A stretch of DNA of 49,048 nucleotides from Opitutales bacterium (GTDB taxonomy: Bacteria > Verrucomicrobiota > Verrucomicrobiia > Opitutales > Oceanipulchritudinaceae). Position 1 is the first letter of the stretch. Each line of letters starts with the position of its first letter. Shown one piece after another: positions 4,239 through 42,084 of this stretch. Under the pieces are notes generated by a model, which was given only the letters and a program-made list of their open reading frames with translations, searched no databases and was not told the origin of the DNA. The translations under genes were made by a program, and so were the position numbers. The stretch is from assembly GCA_020831585.1 (NCBI GenBank), contig JAFIGE010000022.1, positions 1 to 49,048 on the forward strand. Direction: 5' to 3'.

Positions 4239-5294
4239 CTATTTCGCCGAAATATCTTTGGGTAGGCGGTTCTCCAGGTCGCGAAAGCGCTGAAACAACT
4301 CGGGCAGGCGCCGCACCATGCCCTCGAGGCGGCGTTGTTCGGTGAAAGCGCGCGCGGGCGTCCCCGTCACGAGGCTCTTTGGCGGGAGCGATTTCCCAAG
4401 GCCCGCCTGGCCCCCGACTTGGGAGAAGCTACCGATTTCGATGTGCCCTGAAATTCCCGCCTGGCCAGCCAGGGTCACAAAGTCGCCAAGCTTTGCGCTT
4501 CCCGCTATGCCGACACCCGAACAGAGGAGGCAATGTCTACCGACCACACAGTTGTGGCCGATCTGCACCAGATTGTCGATCTTCGTGCCCGTCCCGATGC
4601 GGGTTTCGGTTAGGCGGGCGCGGTCGATCGTCGAATTCGAACCGATCTCCACGCGGTCCTCCAACACCACCCGACCAATCTGCGGCACTTTCCGGTGGCC
4701 CTCCTTGCCCGATTCGTAGCCGAACCCATCCCCTCCGATACGCACGCCGCTGTGCAGGAGACAGTCCGCCCCCACCACGCACTCGTGGGCGATCGTCACC
4801 TGAGGAAAAAGCCGGGTGTTCCGCCCGATATGCGCACCCTTTCCGATAAAGCACTGGGCGCCGATGATGGCATCTGCCTCCACCACCGCACCCGCCTCAA
4901 TCACACAGAGCGGACCGATGTGGGCCGATGAATCGACCCGCGCCAAAGCATCCACCACGGCGGACGGGTGCACGCCGCCGGGCGGGCGGGGGAGGGCCTT
5001 CCGTTCAACTTCCTCCGCGATGAGCGCAAGCCCCAGCGATGGGTTGGGCAGCCAGAAGTAAACCTGCCCGGGCTTCGGCAGTACCTCGCAACCCTCCGGA
5101 AGCAGCACGATACCCGCCCCTGATTTCTCCAGACGCGCCCGGTTTGCGGCTTTATTGAGGAACGAAATATCCTCCGGACCGGCCGCCTCCAGCGGGGCCA
5201 TGCCCGAGAAAACCCCGGAGCCGCACGCTCCGGCCGACCGCGTCCCCTCAGGCAGCAAACTCTTCACGTCCTCCAACGTGTAGCGGAATTCCAT
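4239..5294 (-). CDS. lpxD: UDP-3-O-acylglucosamine N-acyltransferase
   Basis: Third step of lipid A synthesis: transfers a 3-hydroxyacyl chain from acyl-ACP to the 2-amino group of UDP-3-O-acylglucosamine in the cytoplasm. The N-terminal LpxD domain (about 1-105) is followed by a left-handed beta-helix of hexapeptide repeats (about 110-310), including IGGDGFGY and NLVQIGHNC, the latter bearing the expected catalytic His. A C-terminal helix ([24 protein letters not shown]) completes the fold. I chose ATG 5294 (MEFRYTLED, preceded by GGGGAAT) over an in-frame GTG at 5315, giving 351 residues. It shows that the organism has an LPS-type outer membrane. Confidence 0.95.
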
Positions 5295-12086: not shown

Positions 12087-13013
12087 ATGAAAGTCACCAT
12101 CATCGGAGGGGGAGGGCGCGTCGGTTCCAATGCCGCGTTTGCTCTCCAATGCGCCAACCTTGTATCGGAAATTCAGATACTCGACGCCAATACCGATCTT
12201 GCCCAAGGCGAGGCCCTCGACCTTCTTCACGGTGCCTCCTCCCTTGGCGATACGCGCATCTACGCGGGAGATTACGACCGCGCGCGCGACACCAACGTCT
12301 TTGTTATCACGGCCGGGTTGCGGCGAAAGCCCGAGGAATCCCGCCTTGATCTCATCAATCGCAACGTTGCGCTTTTTCGCAACATCCTCAAAGACATCCG
12401 GCGGGCCGGGCATTTGGGGTGCGCGAAGTTTTTCATCGTTTCCAACCCAGTCGATCTCCTCACACATCTTGCCACGCTCGAACTGGAAGTTCCCGCGCAC
12501 CAGGTCCTTGGTCTCGGCACCATGTTGGATACGGCCCGTTTCCGATCCCTCATCGCCGACGAGCTCCAGCTCGCCCCCTCTCAAGTCAAGGCCCTCATCC
12601 TCGGCGAGCATGGCGATTCCATGATCCCCGTCTGGTCCTCCGCGACCTACGGAGGCCTGCCCCTGGCGGGGTATCCCGGTTGCACGCCCCAATTCCAGAA
12701 GCAAATTTTCGAGCGCGCCCGCGGCAGTGGGGCCGAAGTCATCCGCCAAAAAGGCGGTGCCGGCTGGGCCGTCGGGGCAACCATTGCCGACGTCGTGCAC
12801 GCCATCGCTCTTGACCGCCGCCAACTCCTCCCCGTCTCCTCCCGCCAAAGCGGGCGCGTCTACGGTATCCGCGACATCTCCCTCAGCGTGCCCACCATCG
12901 TTGGCCGCGACGGCGTCGTCGACCACGTCGAAATCGACCTCTGGCCCAAGGAAAAGCAAGGCCTCCAAGCCTCCGCGCAAACCCTCCGCCAAACGCTCCT
13001 TAAGATTTCCTGA
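12087..13013 (+). CDS. L-lactate/malate dehydrogenase family protein of the BMC operon
   Basis: A 308-residue NAD-dependent 2-hydroxyacid dehydrogenase fold: glycine-rich IIGGGGRVGSNAA at the N-terminus, catalytic His175 in GEHGDSM, and Arg86 in ESRLDL. The residue that separates lactate (Gln) from malate (Arg) enzymes aligns with Arg80 (LRRKPEE), while the flanking helix is lactate-dehydrogenase-like. As last gene of the operon it probably recycles NAD+ for the aldehyde dehydrogenase; reduction of lactaldehyde to propanediol or an oxo-acid reaction are both possible. It has no visible encapsulation peptide. Confidence 0.85.
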   Translation: MKVTIIGGGGRVGSNAAFALQCANLVSEIQILDANTDLAQGEALDLLHGASSLGDTRIYAGDYDRARDTNVFVITAGLRRKPEESRLDLINRNVALFRNILKDIRRAGHLGCAKFFIVSNPVDLLTHLATLELEVPAHQVLGLGTMLDTARFRSLIADELQLAPSQVKALILGEHGDSMIPVWSSATYGGLPLAGYPGCTPQFQKQIFERARGSGAEVIRQKGGAGWAVGATIADVVHAIALDRRQLLPVSSRQSGRVYGIRDISLSVPTIVGRDGVVDHVEIDLWPKEKQGLQASAQTLRQTLLKIS

Positions 13014-13112: not shown

Positions 13113-14117
13113 CTATCCATTGCGCAGCGAGAAGAGGGGCGTGTTTTCGGTATTGGTCTGTTTCCGCGGACTGCGGGGACGTTTAGGAAAAATATGGGTT
13201 TTGTTCCGCTCAATCCAGGCCTCGATATAAGCTTGGGTTCCAAGGATCGCTCCTCTCGTCATGAACCTCAGACGACAGCGGAGAAGTTCAGCCGCACTCA
13301 ACTCACCCTTCTGTGCAAGCGCTTTTGCCATGGCTTTCTGCGAAACCGTCCCTCCTTTCGTTGGGTTCGATCCTTTGATGAACAGGAGCCTCCGGTAGGC
13401 GGCCGCGATCTCATCAACGGACTCCGCATAGCGCTCCGCGATCATTTGAAAGAGGGGGTGGCTCCGGATGCCTGCTTTCTTCCCCACAGCTTCCCCGTAT
13501 CCGGAAAACCGGTAGTCTTTCGGATCATCGACAATGGCCGCGCGAACAGGATTGAGATCAATATAAGCCGCCACAGCCATGAGCACCGCCGGGCGGTCTT
13601 CGACCAAAACACTGTGATAGCGATCCTCCCAGAGCGTTCCGCAGCGGTCATGTCCTTTGTTGTAGGCGATTGAAAAGCGTTGCTTCAGGATCTTCATGAA
13701 CATCGGAAGTGAGCCCATTCGCCCGATAAGGATCTGACGCATCTGCTCGCGCACGGTTCCCCCCGCCCGCAGGGCCAAATCGATTCGGGCGAAGGAAAGA
13801 GGCTGACCGGGTCGCTCCTTGCCGTAGATCAGACGCGCCCGCCGACGCAGTTCCTCGTCGTCCGGGTTTCCGGCCGTTTCCGGCACCTCCAGCAACAAGT
13901 GGAAATGGTTATCGAGCAGAGCGTAGGTGAGCAAGCGGACTCCGCAGAAATCCGCGACCCGCGCCAGCAGATTTCGGAAGAGCTCCTTCTCCTTTTCCAA
14001 AAGAAGAAAGGCCCGCCCGTTTATTCGGCTGACCACGTGATAATGGGCCTTCCGGCCCGTCTGCAAGATGCGCGGCGCTCGCCGACGCTTTTGGGGAATC
14101 AGGTTCATCGCATTCAT
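13113..14117 (-). CDS. REP-associated tyrosine transposase-like protein (HUH/Y1), copy 1
   Basis: A 334-residue protein of the IS200/IS605-related TnpREP (RAYT) family, single-strand endonucleases linked to REP hairpin repeats. Visible are the HUH motif His71-Phe-His73 in LLDNHFHLLLEV, the probable nucleophile Tyr152 in FSIAYNKGH, and family stretches LWEDRYHSVLVED and AAYIDLNPVRAA. A C-terminal basic tail follows a helical region. The start is ambiguous: ATG 14117 or ATG 14108, because a 25-bp duplication repeats the start region. It sits convergent to the BMC operon, and no terminal repeats of an insertion sequence are evident, as usual for domesticated RAYTs. Confidence 0.85.
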   Translation of the reverse strand: MNAMNLIPQKRRRAPRILQTGRKAHYHVVSRINGRAFLLLEKEKELFRNLLARVADFCGVRLLTYALLDNHFHLLLEVPETAGNPDDEELRRRARLIYGKERPGQPLSFARIDLALRAGGTVREQMRQILIGRMGSLPMFMKILKQRFSIAYNKGHDRCGTLWEDRYHSVLVEDRPAVLMAVAAYIDLNPVRAAIVDDPKDYRFSGYGEAVGKKAGIRSHPLFQMIAERYAESVDEIAAAYRRLLFIKGSNPTKGGTVSQKAMAKALAQKGELSAAELLRCRLRFMTRGAILGTQAYIEAWIERNKTHIFPKRPRSPRKQTNTENTPLFSLRNG

Positions 14118-35265: not shown

Positions 35266-35391
35266 GGGGGGATTGACGCGCCAAAGGACGCCTTGCAGGG
35301 TGGGGGTGATGATCAGATTGGCGCAGTTCTTTTCAGGCTTTCCTGTTCGCCTTGGGCGGATGGTTTTTGCGCGGCGGATGCGTTGCGGAGC

Positions 35392-37779
35392 ATGACGGCC
35401 CCCTCGTCAACCTCCCAACGCGCGGAGTGCCGCCATTGCGGGACCGCCTTCACTCCGGTTCGCGCGGACGAGGCCTTTTGCTGCGGGGGCTGCGCCTTCG
35501 TCCACGACCTTATCCAGGAGCAGGGACTGGGGGAGTTTTACGACTTGCGCGACCGTGCTGTCGCCCCGGTGAAAGCCACGGTCCTGCAGCGGCGCGACTA
35601 CTCTTGGCTGAACGAAGTCGAAGCCGAGGCCAGCGCCGCCAGCGAACGCGAGTTTGCCGCCGCCTTCGAGTTGCAGGGTATCTCCTGCATCGGCTGTGTC
35701 TGGCTCATCGAGCGCGTCTTTCACCAGCAGCCCGGAGCGCTCAAGATCGATATCAACGCCCAACTCGGCGAACTTCATCTCCTCTTTCAACCCGGCGTTT
35801 TTTCCGTCAAAGACTTCGCCGCCACCATACAGCGCTTCGGCTATCTGCTCGGGCCGCCGGGCACAAAAACGCGTGGGGAGAGCGATGCCCTGCTTACGCG
35901 CGTCGGCATCTGTGCGGCCCTCGCCCTCAACACCATGCTCTTCACCCTGCCGGGCTACCTCGGCATGGGAGCGGATTTTCTCTTTGCGGACCTTTTTCGC
36001 CTCCTCACGGTGGTGTTTGCTTCGCTCTCTTTTCTCGTTGGCGGAGTCTACTTCATCAAGCGGGCAGTGGCCGGCTTGCGGCGGGGCGCGCTGCATATCG
36101 ACCTGCCCATTGCCCTCGGGGTGACGGCCGCTTACATCGGCTCGCTCGCCGGTTGGCTGATCGGCGAGGAGCGTTTCATGTATTTCGATTTCGTTGCCGT
36201 CTTCATGCTCCTCATGCTCCTCGGGCGGTGGACGCAGGAGCGCGTGCTCGAACGCAACCGCCAACTCCTTCTCGGCTGGAACCCGCGCGCCGACACCGTT
36301 CGCCGGTTCGCTGAACAGGGAGGGGAGGGCGACGCCGGGCTCGCCTGCGAGGTCCGCGAACTCCGGCGCGGCGATCAGTTTGCCGTGCGCATGGGCCAAT
36401 CCATCCCCGTGCGCAGCCGCTTGCTCTCCGAACGCGTCGAAATCAGCCTCGAATGGATCAATGGCGAACCGGAAGCGCGCCTCATCCATGCGGGCGATTC
36501 CATTCCCTCCGGCGCGGTCTGCCTCAGCCAGGGAGGAGCCCGCTGCGCCGCTGTCGAGGGCTGGGAGGATTCGCTCCTTGGGCGGCTCCTGCAGATGACC
36601 CCCAAGGCCGACCGCTTCACCGGCCTCGAAAAGATTCTCAAAATCTACATCCTCCTGGTCATTGTCGTGGGCATGGCGGGTTTTGCCGTATGGGCCTTCC
36701 ATATGCGGGATGTCGTGTCGGCCTTTCAGGTTTTGATCTCGGTTTTGGTGGTATCCTGCCCCTGCGCGCTCGGCGTGGCCTATCCGCTCACGAATGAAAT
36801 GGCGGTCGTTCGGCTGCGGCGCATTGGCCTCTTCGTGCGCGCCGAATCCTTTTGGGCTCGCTTCAAGCGCATTCGCCGGGTGGTTTTCGACAAAACAGGC
36901 ACCCTCACGCTGGAGAACCCTGTTCTCGTCGACCGGACCGGCCTGGACAACCTCACCGAAGACGCGCGCGGGGTCCTTTGGCACCTCGTTGAGGGCAATC
37001 TCCATCCGATTTGCCGGGGTCTGCGCGAGGCCCTCCTCGGCCAGCGCGGACACACGCCCCCCGGCGCGGGCGAAGTCTCCGAAGTCGTCGGCAAAGGTCT
37101 GGAGGTCACGGTGGCCGGGGCGCGCTGGCGCCTGGGCCGGAGCGATTGGGCGCTCACCGGGTGCGGGGAGGATGTTGCGGAAGTCTCCGCTGATACCGTC
37201 CTCAGTCGGGACGGGGCCTGCTTGGCCGCCTTTTCCTTCCGCGAGGAGCCCCGGCCCGATGCCCGCGCCGAAATCCAGAATCTGCGGCGGATGGGATGGG
37301 CCGTCCACATCCTCAGCGGCGACCGCCCGGAGAAAGTCCGCCACATGACCGACGCCCTTGGGCTGCCGCCCGAGAGCGGCCACGGCAATTGTTCGCCCGA
37401 CGACAAAGCCGCCTGGATCCGCCGTCACGACCCCGACCACCTTCTCTTCGTCGGTGATGGGGCCAACGACAGCCTTGCCTTCGATCTAGCCGGTTGCACG
37501 GGCACGCCCGTAGCCGATTCCCCGCTCCTGCAAAGCAAAGCCGACTTCTATTTCTTCGGGCGCAGCCTCAACGCCCTCCGCGCACTCATTTCCGCCGGTC
37601 GCCTCCGCGCCCGCACCGCCCGGCAGGTTTTCCTTTTCGCCATCCTCTACAACATCGCCGTGGTCATCGTCGCCCTCGCCGGGCACATGCACCCCCTCCT
37701 CGCGGCCATCCTCATGCCCCTGTCCTCCCTCGTCACCCTCGTCATTGTGCGCCTCGGCTTCCGCGCACGGGCACCCTAA
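35392..37779 (+). CDS. ccoI: Copper-transporting P-type ATPase, CcoI/FixI type
   Basis: A 795-residue P1B-type ATPase exporting Cu(I) for cbb3 oxidase assembly. Domain order: a Cys-rich N-terminus (CRHCGTAFTP, FCCGGCAFVHDLI), a heavy-metal-associated domain with Cys99-x-x-Cys102 (SCIGCVW), membrane spans, CPC motif Cys456-Pro-Cys458 (SCPCALGVA), phosphorylation Asp500 in DKTGTLT, and GDGANDS with Asp689. The Cys-rich N-terminus plus one HMA is typical of the CcoI/FixI branch rather than detoxifying CopA. ATG 35392 fits; the frame is open upstream. Nearness to ccoNOP and ccoS supports this. Confidence 0.9.
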   Translation: MTAPSSTSQRAECRHCGTAFTPVRADEAFCCGGCAFVHDLIQEQGLGEFYDLRDRAVAPVKATVLQRRDYSWLNEVEAEASAASEREFAAAFELQGISCIGCVWLIERVFHQQPGALKIDINAQLGELHLLFQPGVFSVKDFAATIQRFGYLLGPPGTKTRGESDALLTRVGICAALALNTMLFTLPGYLGMGADFLFADLFRLLTVVFASLSFLVGGVYFIKRAVAGLRRGALHIDLPIALGVTAAYIGSLAGWLIGEERFMYFDFVAVFMLLMLLGRWTQERVLERNRQLLLGWNPRADTVRRFAEQGGEGDAGLACEVRELRRGDQFAVRMGQSIPVRSRLLSERVEISLEWINGEPEARLIHAGDSIPSGAVCLSQGGARCAAVEGWEDSLLGRLLQMTPKADRFTGLEKILKIYILLVIVVGMAGFAVWAFHMRDVVSAFQVLISVLVVSCPCALGVAYPLTNEMAVVRLRRIGLFVRAESFWARFKRIRRVVFDKTGTLTLENPVLVDRTGLDNLTEDARGVLWHLVEGNLHPICRGLREALLGQRGHTPPGAGEVSEVVGKGLEVTVAGARWRLGRSDWALTGCGEDVAEVSADTVLSRDGACLAAFSFREEPRPDARAEIQNLRRMGWAVHILSGDRPEKVRHMTDALGLPPESGHGNCSPDDKAAWIRRHDPDHLLFVGDGANDSLAFDLAGCTGTPVADSPLLQSKADFYFFGRSLNALRALISAGRLRARTARQVFLFAILYNIAVVIVALAGHMHPLLAAILMPLSSLVTLVIVRLGFRARAP

Positions 37780-37800
37780 CCAAATTTTCCCCGAGCCCCG

Positions 37801-37826
37801 TAGCCAGCCTCGCAAGAGGGTGGATC
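37801..37826. repeat. REP-like hairpin repeat, copy 1
   Basis: A 26-bp sequence beginning TAGCCAGCCTCGC and ending AGGGTGGATC, identical to 37899-37924. It folds as an imperfect hairpin: CCAGCCTC pairs with GAGGGTGG through one G-G mismatch, closed by a GCAA loop. Size, structure and place between genes are those of repetitive extragenic palindromes. Confidence 0.72.
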
Positions 37827-37898
37827 AACCGGATTCGAAAAGCCCGACCATTCCCAAACGGGTTCGCGCTTTGGCCAGCGCAGCTTCAACCGAGCCTT

Positions 37899-37924
37899 TA
37901 GCCAGCCTCGCAAGAGGGTGGATC
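37899..37924. repeat. REP-like hairpin repeat, copy 2
   Basis: Second identical copy in the same orientation, 98 bp after the first. Outside the core the flanks differ, so this is not a simple duplication of the whole interval. Confidence 0.72.
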
Positions 37925-38094
37925 CCGAACATTCTCGCTTGGAAAACCGGCTCCCAACTGCGGGTTTTAGATTTAAACGGACGGCCGCTTCCATCGATGA
38001 ATTTCAAACCGCCGTTTCAATTGCACCCCGTGGCATTTGAGAAGAAGGAATTACCTTGTCGGGTCGGGCCAGGCGTGCGTATACCTTCAGGCTA

Positions 38095-38670
38095 ATGGGT
38101 CGGTGCTGCGCAATTTCCATCTGGTTTCTGCTGTTCGTTGGGGGGGGCTCTCTCTGGGCCGCTCCCGAGCGTATGCAGGTCTTGATCGGAGAGGGGGCAG
38201 GACCCGAGGGTTTGGTCTTCACGGGGTTTCAGCCCTGCGGAGAGCCTGCTTTTCATCTCTCGGTGGAGTTTGCGCGCGTGAAGCCGCGCTCCCTGCGTTT
38301 CCTGCGCACGCGGCTGCATTACCGCCCCGAATTGACCGGTGTTGTGCTCAGAATCGAGCATCCGGGCACCGTCCCTTCGCTGGAAGACATTCTCCGCCTA
38401 TTTACCCCGCACCCGCCCACGGTGGATCTCCGGCAGGTCACTGTGATTTCGCGCGAGGAAACTCTGCGGGGAGATTTTGCCCGTCTTCTCTCTTGCGGCA
38501 CGCTGGTCTTCCTTCCCGGAGAGTGGACGTCGGCGGGTGAAGACCGGCGCGGGCGCATCACCTTGGCAGATTGGCTTCGCAAGACATCTGTAGGCTCCTT
38601 GCCTGGTCAAGGCCCGGCCACTCCCTTTATTCACGCTTCTTCTCTTCCTATTGATTCAGAAAATCTATGA
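38095..38670 (+). CDS. Secreted protein of unknown function
   Basis: A 191-residue protein with a signal peptide (hydrophobic ISIWFLLFVGGGSLWAA, probable cleavage after Ala23). The mature part has no recognised domain; it is rich in beta-type stretches (MQVLIGEGAGPEGLVF, AFHLSVEF, LTGVVLRIEHPG) and has two Cys (in QPCGEP and LLSCGT) that could pair. ATG 38095 is chosen because it gives a clean signal peptide. Its stop overlaps the next start by 4 bp (ATGA at 38667), so the two products probably work together. Confidence 0.7.
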   Translation: MGRCCAISIWFLLFVGGGSLWAAPERMQVLIGEGAGPEGLVFTGFQPCGEPAFHLSVEFARVKPRSLRFLRTRLHYRPELTGVVLRIEHPGTVPSLEDILRLFTPHPPTVDLRQVTVISREETLRGDFARLLSCGTLVFLPGEWTSAGEDRRGRITLADWLRKTSVGSLPGQGPATPFIHASSLPIDSENL

Positions 38671-40085: not shown

Positions 40086-40146
40086 GCTCGCTGAAGTCAA
40101 GACAGGCTAGGCGTCTCTGTCGGGGCGGAGGCTCTTGCGTGAAGGA

Positions 40147-40172
40147 GGCTGGCCTCTCATTGGGGGCCAGCC
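40147..40172. terminator. Hairpin at convergent gene ends
   Basis: GGCTGGCC (40147-40154) and GGCCAGCC (40165-40172) form an 8-bp GC-rich stem with a 10-nt loop between the convergent secreted-protein and acetyltransferase genes, overlapping the latter's last codons. No T-tract; it may act with Rho or as an mRNA end stabiliser. Confidence 0.35.
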
Positions 40173-40994: not shown

Positions 40995-41034
40995 GGCCGT
41001 TTGTAATGTTCAGAGGCCGTTTGTAATGTTCAGA
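40995..41034. repeat. Perfect 2 x 20-bp tandem repeat upstream of RAYT copy 2
   Basis: A 20-bp unit starting GGCCGTTTGTAATG and ending TTCAGA occurs twice head-to-tail (40995-41014, 41015-41034), 45 bp before the transposase start. Such short perfect repeats can be substrate or insertion-site remnants of HUH transposases. Confidence 0.75.
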
Positions 41035-41079
41035 TCATTTTCGCGTTGACAGACATGATAGGAGTATTTGAGTGCAATC

Positions 41080-42084
41080 ATGAGCAGAAGATTTTGTCGT
41101 AGACTACGTTATCCGCGACTGGCGTGCCACCACCTTATTTCGCGGGTGGTGCAGAAAAGGCGGCTGATGGATGAGGAGGCGATGGAGGCGATGCGCCATA
41201 TTATGCGCTCGCAGGCGGCGTTTGCGGGGATGGAGGTGCTGACGTATTGCTTTATGGCCAATCACTTTCACATCTTCGTGCGGCTGGATCCGAAGGAGAC
41301 CGAGCACCTGGACGATGCGGGTCTGGTGGCGCGCTTTCGGGCCCTGTATGGTGGGACGCGCTGTGCTTCGCTGGGGATCGATGCGGATGATTTGGAGGTC
41401 ATTCTGAGACATGATGGGAACTCCGCAGGGGGCATCCGGCGACGGCTGAAGGCGCGGATGGGGGATGTGTCGGTCTTTATGCGGGAGGTGAAAACGCGCT
41501 TCACTTTGTGGTATAATCGGAAGCGCGGGACGGTGGGCACGTTCTGGGCGGAGCGTTTCCGCAGTGTAATCGTGGAGGCGGATACGGAGGCGCAAAGGAT
41601 GGTGGCGGCGTATATCGACTTGAACCCGGTGCGGGCGGGGCTGGTGGAGGACGCGGGCGACTATGGTTTCAGTGGTTTCGGGGAGGCTTGCGCGGGTGGC
41701 TCGGCGGCACGGCGGGGGATCGCCCGGATCGAGGGCAAGATGACTTGGATGACCAAATGGCATGAACGCTACCGTGCGCGGTTGTGCAGTCGGATGGGTC
41801 CGGGAACGGGAATGCGGCCTCTTCGGGGAGACCAGAGGACTGCGGAAGCCGGTGCAACTGAGGAGAAATCGATGCCTGGAGCGGTTATGACAGAAGGATC
41901 CGGGCTGCTCTCGAAGATCCGGGCCTTTAGTGAGAGCTGGGTAGTGGGGTCGGTAGCCTGGGTGGAAAACTTCTGCGCGGCAGATGGCTGGCTCGGGTTT
42001 CGAAGGGGAAGGCAGCCCAAACCGCTCGTGGCGGACGGAGGTGCTGAATTTGCGACGGTCGCGATAGTGGTGAAACGCCACTGA
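41080..42084 (+). CDS. REP-associated tyrosine transposase-like protein (HUH/Y1), copy 2
   Basis: A 334-residue RAYT-family protein: HUH motif His62-Phe-His64 in YCFMANHFHIFVRL, nucleophile candidate Tyr145 in FTLWYNRKRG, and FWAERFRSVIVEAD, AAYIDLNPVRAG. It is related to the copy at 13113-14117 but clearly diverged, so the two arrived or evolved separately. The C-terminal 110 residues are poorly conserved in appearance. ATG 41080 is preferred over TTG 41068. No IS ends seen. Confidence 0.85.
   Translation: MSRRFCRRLRYPRLACHHLISRVVQKRRLMDEEAMEAMRHIMRSQAAFAGMEVLTYCFMANHFHIFVRLDPKETEHLDDAGLVARFRALYGGTRCASLGIDADDLEVILRHDGNSAGGIRRRLKARMGDVSVFMREVKTRFTLWYNRKRGTVGTFWAERFRSVIVEADTEAQRMVAAYIDLNPVRAGLVEDAGDYGFSGFGEACAGGSAARRGIARIEGKMTWMTKWHERYRARLCSRMGPGTGMRPLRGDQRTAEAGATEEKSMPGAVMTEGSGLLSKIRAFSESWVVGSVAWVENFCAADGWLGFRRGRQPKPLVADGGAEFATVAIVVKRH

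Follow-up and report, generated by a model that had tools for sequence, protein, structure and literature searches.

REPs, and the REPINs that they build, have been described in several bacteria together with the RAYT transposases to which they are linked. In Pseudomonas fluorescens SBW25, according to the sections of PMC3116915 on these elements, a REPIN consists of two inverted REPs, single REPs are read as remnants, tandem arrays include flanking sequence, and the family is linked to a RAYT; a simulation in that work placed 1,422 16-mers. The family descriptions in PMC3733652 cover 24 families and report GTAG-type REPs from Opitutus terrae and other bacteria. That a REP tag can supply the TAG stop codon of a flanking open reading frame is reported there as well, and is known in kind from the relevant part of PMC2817692. 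On the side of the enzyme, TnpAREP binds the folded, single-stranded REP and cleaves nearby, and recognition depends, to differing degrees, on the GTAG tag and on irregularities of the hairpin (PMC8266576, in its account of recognition).

The stretch of DNA considered here, referred to as the window, comprises 49,048 nucleotides from an Opitutales bacterium. It contains a pair of REP hairpins that we regard, with a probability of roughly 0.9, as what is left of a short REPIN array. REPINs are non-autonomous elements in which two GTAG-tagged hairpins stand in inverted orientation. Those considered here very likely spread, now or formerly, through the cleavage and joining of single-stranded DNA by a RAYT/TnpAREP acting in trans, most likely the one encoded at C70:5018-5665.

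The unit in the window and its family

Two identical copies of the 26-mer TAGCCAGCCTCGCAAGAGGGTGGATC lie on a common strand at 37801-37826 and 37899-37924, 98 bp apart, exactly as the initial annotation had described them. Its proposed fold was reproduced as well: the arms CCA-G-CCTC and GAGG-G-TGG enclose a GCAA loop and contain one G.G mismatch. When up to three mismatches are allowed, the 20-bp core occurs at just two places in the window, while dinucleotide shuffles contain 0.01 places on average and none of 100 contained two. The assignment to a REP-like class was right in so far as this is a GTAG-type REP hairpin, but the unit is larger than had been supposed: an inverted partner lies between the two copies, the GTAG tag begins at 37800, and the second copy carries TTAG. 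The following features can be distinguished.

37800..37888, plus strand: REPIN unit 1, consisting of a left REP, a spacer of about 38 bp and an inverted right REP; it matches the family model R1 with 85.9 bits (E 2.8e-29), a score inflated by the presence of the unit itself in the alignment behind the model
37800..37824, plus strand: left REP, copy 1, with GTAG tag (37800-37803), hairpin (37804-37823), GCAA loop and G.G mismatch; no mismatches to the 25-mer
37863..37888, minus strand: inverted right REP of unit 1, decayed, with GAAG in place of the GTAG tag; recognised by at most five mismatches from the right-REP consensus and by the model alignment
37898..37922, plus strand: left REP, copy 2, with TTAG tag and hairpin at 37902-37921; one mismatch to the 25-mer

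The match of copy 2 to the family model extends over 37898-37962 with 33.9 bits and skips the right half, and the model recognises no right REP 3' of this copy. A third match in the window is unit 1 read on the opposite strand; elsewhere in the window, the model finds nothing with an E value below 0.27. The letters that had been quoted for a degenerate half at 40132-40153, on the minus strand, do exist, but the stretch is not recognisable as a REP of this family, since it is missing from the 37 unfiltered model matches obtained in the window at E values up to 10.

An inverted, partly decayed REP lies between the copies, so that copy 1 forms the left end of a complete REPIN. Unit 1 and the first unit in the array C42 have clearly homologous spacers (8.3 standard deviations; none of 500 shuffles scored as high), an observation in favour of units having been copied as a whole. 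The flanks 5' of the two window copies resemble each other at chance level (621 of 1000 shuffles as high), and those 3' of them show a weak similarity (7 of 1000). The pair is a decayed REPIN followed by a leftover left half, rather than two independent REPs. As DNA, the decayed unit does not fold end to end into a single hairpin; a unit from the array C70, by contrast, does so with -22.8 kcal/mol.

The initial annotation had named the absence of further copies in the genome as the result that would speak against a REP. The genome (5.28 Mb in 262 contigs) contains the 20-bp core, at up to three mismatches, at 45 places, of which 11 are exact, compared with 0 for the reversed control. Two of the places with three mismatches, on C190 and C256, lack the tag GTAG and probably match by chance. 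Searched on its own at the same stringency, the right REP is found at 52 places, again with 0 for the reversed control. This inverted mate, TCCACGCTTTGGCAAGCG(T/C)(A/G)GCTAC, lies about 55-70 bp downstream of the left REP; in the stretches around the copies that were examined, it is present for 34 of 44 left REPs, and GTAG precedes nearly all left hairpins. Read as its reverse complement, it starts with GTAGC and continues into a hairpin that ends in GTGGA, with a stem and a loop unlike those of the left REP. Each unit is therefore composed of two unlike REPs, the tags being outermost. The tag is intact at 42 of the 43 listed places of the 25-mer, including window copy 1, the exception being window copy 2 with TTAG; the pattern used included the tag and may have missed places in which it differs.

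The covariance model R1 was built on 23 of the 34 units, picked to span the variants. One pair of the left stem, never broken, occurs as C-G in 16 of these units and as U-A in the other 7, which constitutes a compensatory change. Over the whole structure, nine cells have changed on both sides, and neither this count nor the covariation score was reached by any of 500 shuffles. Two other counts do not exceed those of the shuffles: two pairs have changed on both sides (385 of 500 shuffles as high), and there are five further pair types (495 of 500). Two pairs of the right stem are poorly kept, being paired in 10 and 16 of the 23 cells. The alignment thus suggests a stem-loop maintained by selection or by mechanism, mainly on account of a single pair.

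Applied to the entire genome, the model yields at least 76 matches at E values up to 0.01 from the 150 candidates scored out of 4334; 11 of these matches were dropped as opposite-strand readings of one place. There remain at least 65 distinct places, whole units and halves taken together, at 31 sites on 25 contigs. The largest arrays are C70 with 14, C255 with 8 and C42 with 4 units. At nine of the 31 sites, a contig end is no more than 320 bp away, and arrays have therefore probably been shortened by assembly. With respect to genes, 17 sites lie outside every open reading frame call of at least 100 aa, these calls being uncurated. Among the other 14, the overlapped call is shorter than 200 aa in seven cases (the window among them), measures 214-266 aa in three, and reaches at least 493 aa in four. 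The long calls, of 493-841 aa, are overlapped at L265 (C231:26890-27107), L266 and L267 (C240:4388-4558 and 12260-12356) and L036 (C206:25-296); these are possibly REPs within genes, or else the calls are spurious.

The RAYT in the largest array and its relatives

The array C70 has one interruption: the left REPs at 4994 and 5662 are separated by an open reading frame that stands where one spacer and a right REP would be expected.

C70:5018-5665 (L031): RAYT open reading frame inside the C70 array, identified by the motifs PDHLH and YMAENP

Nine left REPs of the array precede this frame and five follow it, and a right mate is found for 13 of these 14. The tag of the following REP provides the TAG with which the RAYT frame stops. 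The start of the frame is uncertain, since the alignments with strong relatives begin only at residues 26 to 37. One candidate ATG overlaps with the REP before it, at the end of that REP, and is preceded by a purine-rich stem arm. The gene is present in a single copy in the genome. It is not among the 134 genomic matches to PF01797 and was recognised from the list of open reading frames in the array; a comparison of its product with Pfam at E values up to 10 gives nothing relevant and one chance-level row (E 0.22). Against the NCBIfam model REP_Tyr_transpos the protein scores 59.1 bits, under the cut-off of 80, which is read as divergence given the E value of 4.2e-16. At E values up to 0.01 the same model is matched by all 12 aligned members, the C70 RAYT included, and both histidines, the tyrosine and the asparagine are invariant in these 12 sequences.

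Structural comparison points in the same direction. The sole sequence match in the PDB at E values up to 0.01 is 4er8, the TnpAREP of E. coli (E 7.7e-5), and the E value falls to 3.7e-8 when a profile of 34 relatives is used; 34 of 80 RAYT loci entered the structure alignment. A relative that is 57% identical over residues 38-202 (L190) was modelled with a pLDDT of 94, and a Foldseek search with this model gives as best PDB fold again 4er8, a RAYT bound to a REP hairpin (E 1.6e-8). The C70 RAYT has the HUH motif and the tyrosine of Y---NP, and by way of this relative's model it is predicted to have the TnpAREP fold. It is the likely enzyme partner of the REP, judging from its place in the array and from its sequence.

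Relatives of this enzyme are repeatedly found with REPs of their own. Matches to the C70 RAYT occur in 19 of 89 genomes, of which 12 are strong (E below 1e-30), its own genome being included in both counts. At all 11 strong loci in other genomes (L093-L103), tagged hairpins lie near the RAYT, mostly repeated and on both sides, in a loose scan that allowed GTAG or GGAG and had no control. L096 uses GGAG instead of GTAG, and L100 has convincing hairpins on one side only. A search of the 88 other genomes for the window's 25-mer, with up to three mismatches allowed, gives a single place. It lies in G047, has three mismatches and precedes a broken RAYT copy by about 55 bp. This second RAYT copy of G047 (L111, C1:2670126-2670611) contains one TAG and one TAA within its frame.

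A wider scan of named genomes took the best 80 of 344 confirmed relatives. Most of these 80 loci carry the titles of Verrucomicrobiota or of its subgroups, in addition to a few Planctomycetes, one from Armatimonadetes, one from Kiritimatiellaeota and unnamed bacteria. Within the best 80 of 344, GTAG hairpins occur upstream of the RAYT at 43 loci, downstream at 44 and on both sides at 39, whereas 11 permuted tags give 0-5 two-sided cases; with other tags, two-sided cases number 11 for GTGG, 9 for GTCG, 4 for GCAG, 2 for CTAC and 0 for CATG. The best upstream and downstream hairpins are at least 80% identical at 38 of the 39 two-sided loci, compared with 2.46 on average, and 6 at most, when loci are mismatched. 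Over these 38 loci, the one with less similar hairpins being omitted, REP distance correlates with RAYT distance (r 0.371, a value reached by none of 5000 permutations). Hence, on these sequence comparisons, REP and RAYT seem to diverge together.

The strict scanner finds a GTAG hairpin on neither side at 32 of the best 80 of 344 loci. At 29 of these 32, a repeat with at least 17 of 22 letters in common flanks the RAYT on both sides, with a high control value (36.5% of 312 pairings), and many of the 29 shared repeats have GTAG and an imperfect hairpin. By eye, the GTAG repeats of L184, L188, L192, L227-L229 and similar loci resemble hairpins with a tandem G.A mismatch, for example GTAGCAGCCGACGTAAGGAGGCT, a type that the strict scan misses. 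The REP tag supplies the stop codon of the RAYT at 11 of the best 80 of 344 loci. More generally, 30 of 79 RAYT frames end in GTAG, compared with 34 of 194 uncurated neighbouring frames (Fisher p 4.9e-4).

Explanations for the spread of the family

By analogy with TnpAREP, the C70 enzyme would act on an exposed strand, at the left and the right REP of one REPIN. It would cut at the GTAG foot, and whole REPINs could in this manner be moved or copied. The unit in the window is probably no longer a substrate: of the four tags expected, one reads GAAG, one reads TTAG and one is absent, and the copy would therefore now be immobile.

It could also be imagined that tandem recombination and segmental duplication account for most of the family's growth and that the RAYT is in the largest array by coincidence. 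The largest sites are indeed tandem arrays of similar units, and in two other genomes the REPs that flank a RAYT are concentrated locally. In a search of 12 RAYT-bearing genomes at up to two mismatches, one such flanking REP has nine copies in its own genome, seven of them on the RAYT contig, and elsewhere only three copies, each with two mismatches, in another genome of that genus; a second flanking REP has 14 copies in its own genome, nine of them on the RAYT contig, and none elsewhere. Local growth of arrays could therefore explain part of the copy number. As the main explanation it is unlikely: the 31 sites are separate and spread over 25 contigs, and RAYT relatives elsewhere repeatedly have matching REPs of their own, with coupled divergence of the two.

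Another possibility concerns the genes that surround the site.

35293..37779, plus strand: upstream gene for a copper-type P-ATPase (putative start codon), with the Pfam domains E1-E2_ATPase, Hydrolase and ATPase-cat_bd
38056..38670, plus strand: downstream open reading frame of 204 aa, from the list of open reading frames

From its set of domains, we take the upstream product to be a P1B ATPase of the CcoI/FixI-like type. The 204-aa frame has no Pfam match at E values up to 0.001. The REPIN begins 20 bp past the stop codon of the ATPase gene, between these two frames on the same strand, and the hairpins might have been kept as RNA elements of the 3' end of that gene, stabilising the mRNA or acting as weak terminators, with a spread that is unrelated to any RAYT today. 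A position 3' of coding regions is frequent for REPs, as stated in the family descriptions of PMC3733652. However, between 37401 and 38400 no site resembling an intrinsic terminator was found, compared with 1.8 in shuffles, and Rfam gives no match at the gathering score in the same interval. Moreover, the identical kind of hairpin occurs at 31 sites, some of them arrayed, and an RNA element leaves both the GTAG tags and the inverted partner unexplained. We regard this explanation as quite improbable; the site is an ordinary worn repeat 3' of a copper ATPase gene.

The window itself contains two transposase genes, which the initial annotation had pointed to as RAYT-like.

41068..42084, plus strand: Y1 transposase gene of a heavily amplified group (Y1_Tnp, E 1.3e-9)
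13113..14117, minus strand: second Y1 transposase gene, from the PF01797 search and motifs

Their products measure 338 and 334 aa, are 30% identical to each other and share the motifs NHFH and YIDLNP. The 134 matches to PF01797 in the genome are of all kinds, many of them at contig ends. Over the aligned part, identity to the 41068 gene amounts to 82-98% at the ten closest of the loci compared, several of which are truncated by a contig end; the amplification of this group is partly recent. That the repeats are miniature elements moved by this group is hardly credible. It is abundant, and one copy lies 3.1 kb from the repeats, but neither the left nor the right REP was detected, with four mismatches allowed, at any of the 30 top-scoring Y1_Tnp loci, 25 of which are relatives of the 41068 gene (E values up to 1e-5). 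The ten closest copies have a different upstream palindrome in common, and it is the C70 RAYT that the REP flanks on either side. Both window genes belong to a separate Y1 group and, to judge from these 30 loci, are not the likely partners. The link between the REP and a RAYT, which the initial annotation had also proposed, was borne out by the RAYT inside the C70 array and by the flanking GTAG hairpins at its relatives; as to which clade co-occurs with the REP, it is that of the single-copy C70 RAYT. A RAYT-like gene in the vicinity of a REP is not necessarily its partner.

Ten copies of the Y1 group (L059, L062, L063, L065-L068, L071, L074 and L075) share an upstream palindrome close to AATGTTCWGAWCATT. 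It is followed by ATTGAC in most of them and lies about 50 bp before the start of the open reading frame, with unrelated DNA further up; it may represent the left end and promoter of the Y1 element. In the window, at 40995-41050, upstream of the 41068 gene, GGCCGTTTGTAATGTTCAGA occurs twice in tandem, and this 20-mer is absent near the other ten copies.

Two other classes of repeat were set aside: CRISPR, since the spacers themselves contain the conserved inverted REP, and, provisionally, integron attC, on the basis of its motifs.

Comparison with known systems

The attribution of the repeats to a RAYT of the TnpAREP type places them beside several described systems. The window Y1 genes resemble subclass 2.3 of TnpAY1, or TIRYT-like genes, as characterised in the pertinent part of PMC6006769: about 335 aa, NH[FY]H, Y-DLNP, many copies and freedom from REPs, a likeness judged by motif, length and copy number.

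With the E. coli TnpAREP (4er8), the C70 RAYT has in common the core of HUH and tyrosine, 4er8 being the best PDB fold for its close relative, and both systems have an imperfect hairpin after GTAG, to go by the recognition data of PMC8266576. The two differ in that identity amounts to about 18% in the fold alignment, and in that the hairpin has a four-base loop and a single G.G mismatch here and a bulge in E. coli. It may be speculated that the C70 RAYT belongs to a separate subclass of TnpAREP, of Verrucomicrobiota and Planctomycetes, outside the published subclasses. Such a subclass would read REP hairpins that contain internal mismatches (G.G in the present family, apparently G.A in other members), as a third mode of recognition besides the bulged and the perfect-hairpin groups. 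This proposal is tentative, and rather doubtful at present. Its candidate motifs are [LI]MPDHxH and, in most members, YxxxNPxR, and the one member so scored falls below the NCBIfam cut-off and is invisible to Pfam.

The REPINs of P. fluorescens SBW25 are like the present family in their inverted pair, singlet remnants, tandem arrays and link to a RAYT, as presented in the REPIN sections of PMC3116915. In comparison, the present family differs in sequence and has a smaller population (at least 65 places, versus the 1,422 16-mers of the simulation), the two REPs of its unit are unlike in stem and loop, and its RAYT lies inside the largest array.

A closer resemblance of form is found in PMC3733652, whose family descriptions share the GTAG foot, the short stem, head-head dimers (including those of unlike REPs), tandem clusters and REPtrons. 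In so far as these families are compared by description, the repeat is a new family of a known kind, the GTAG REP/REPIN. REP-tag stop codons, heterodimers and tandem clusters have all been described before, in the respective parts of PMC3733652, PMC3116915 and PMC2817692. What the present locus adds to these systems is a matched pair of enzyme and repeat with dozens of sister pairs whose hairpins differ, which makes it useful for understanding how a RAYT recognises its own hairpin; at the level of the phylum, the literature that we found relevant to such pairs is PMC3733652.
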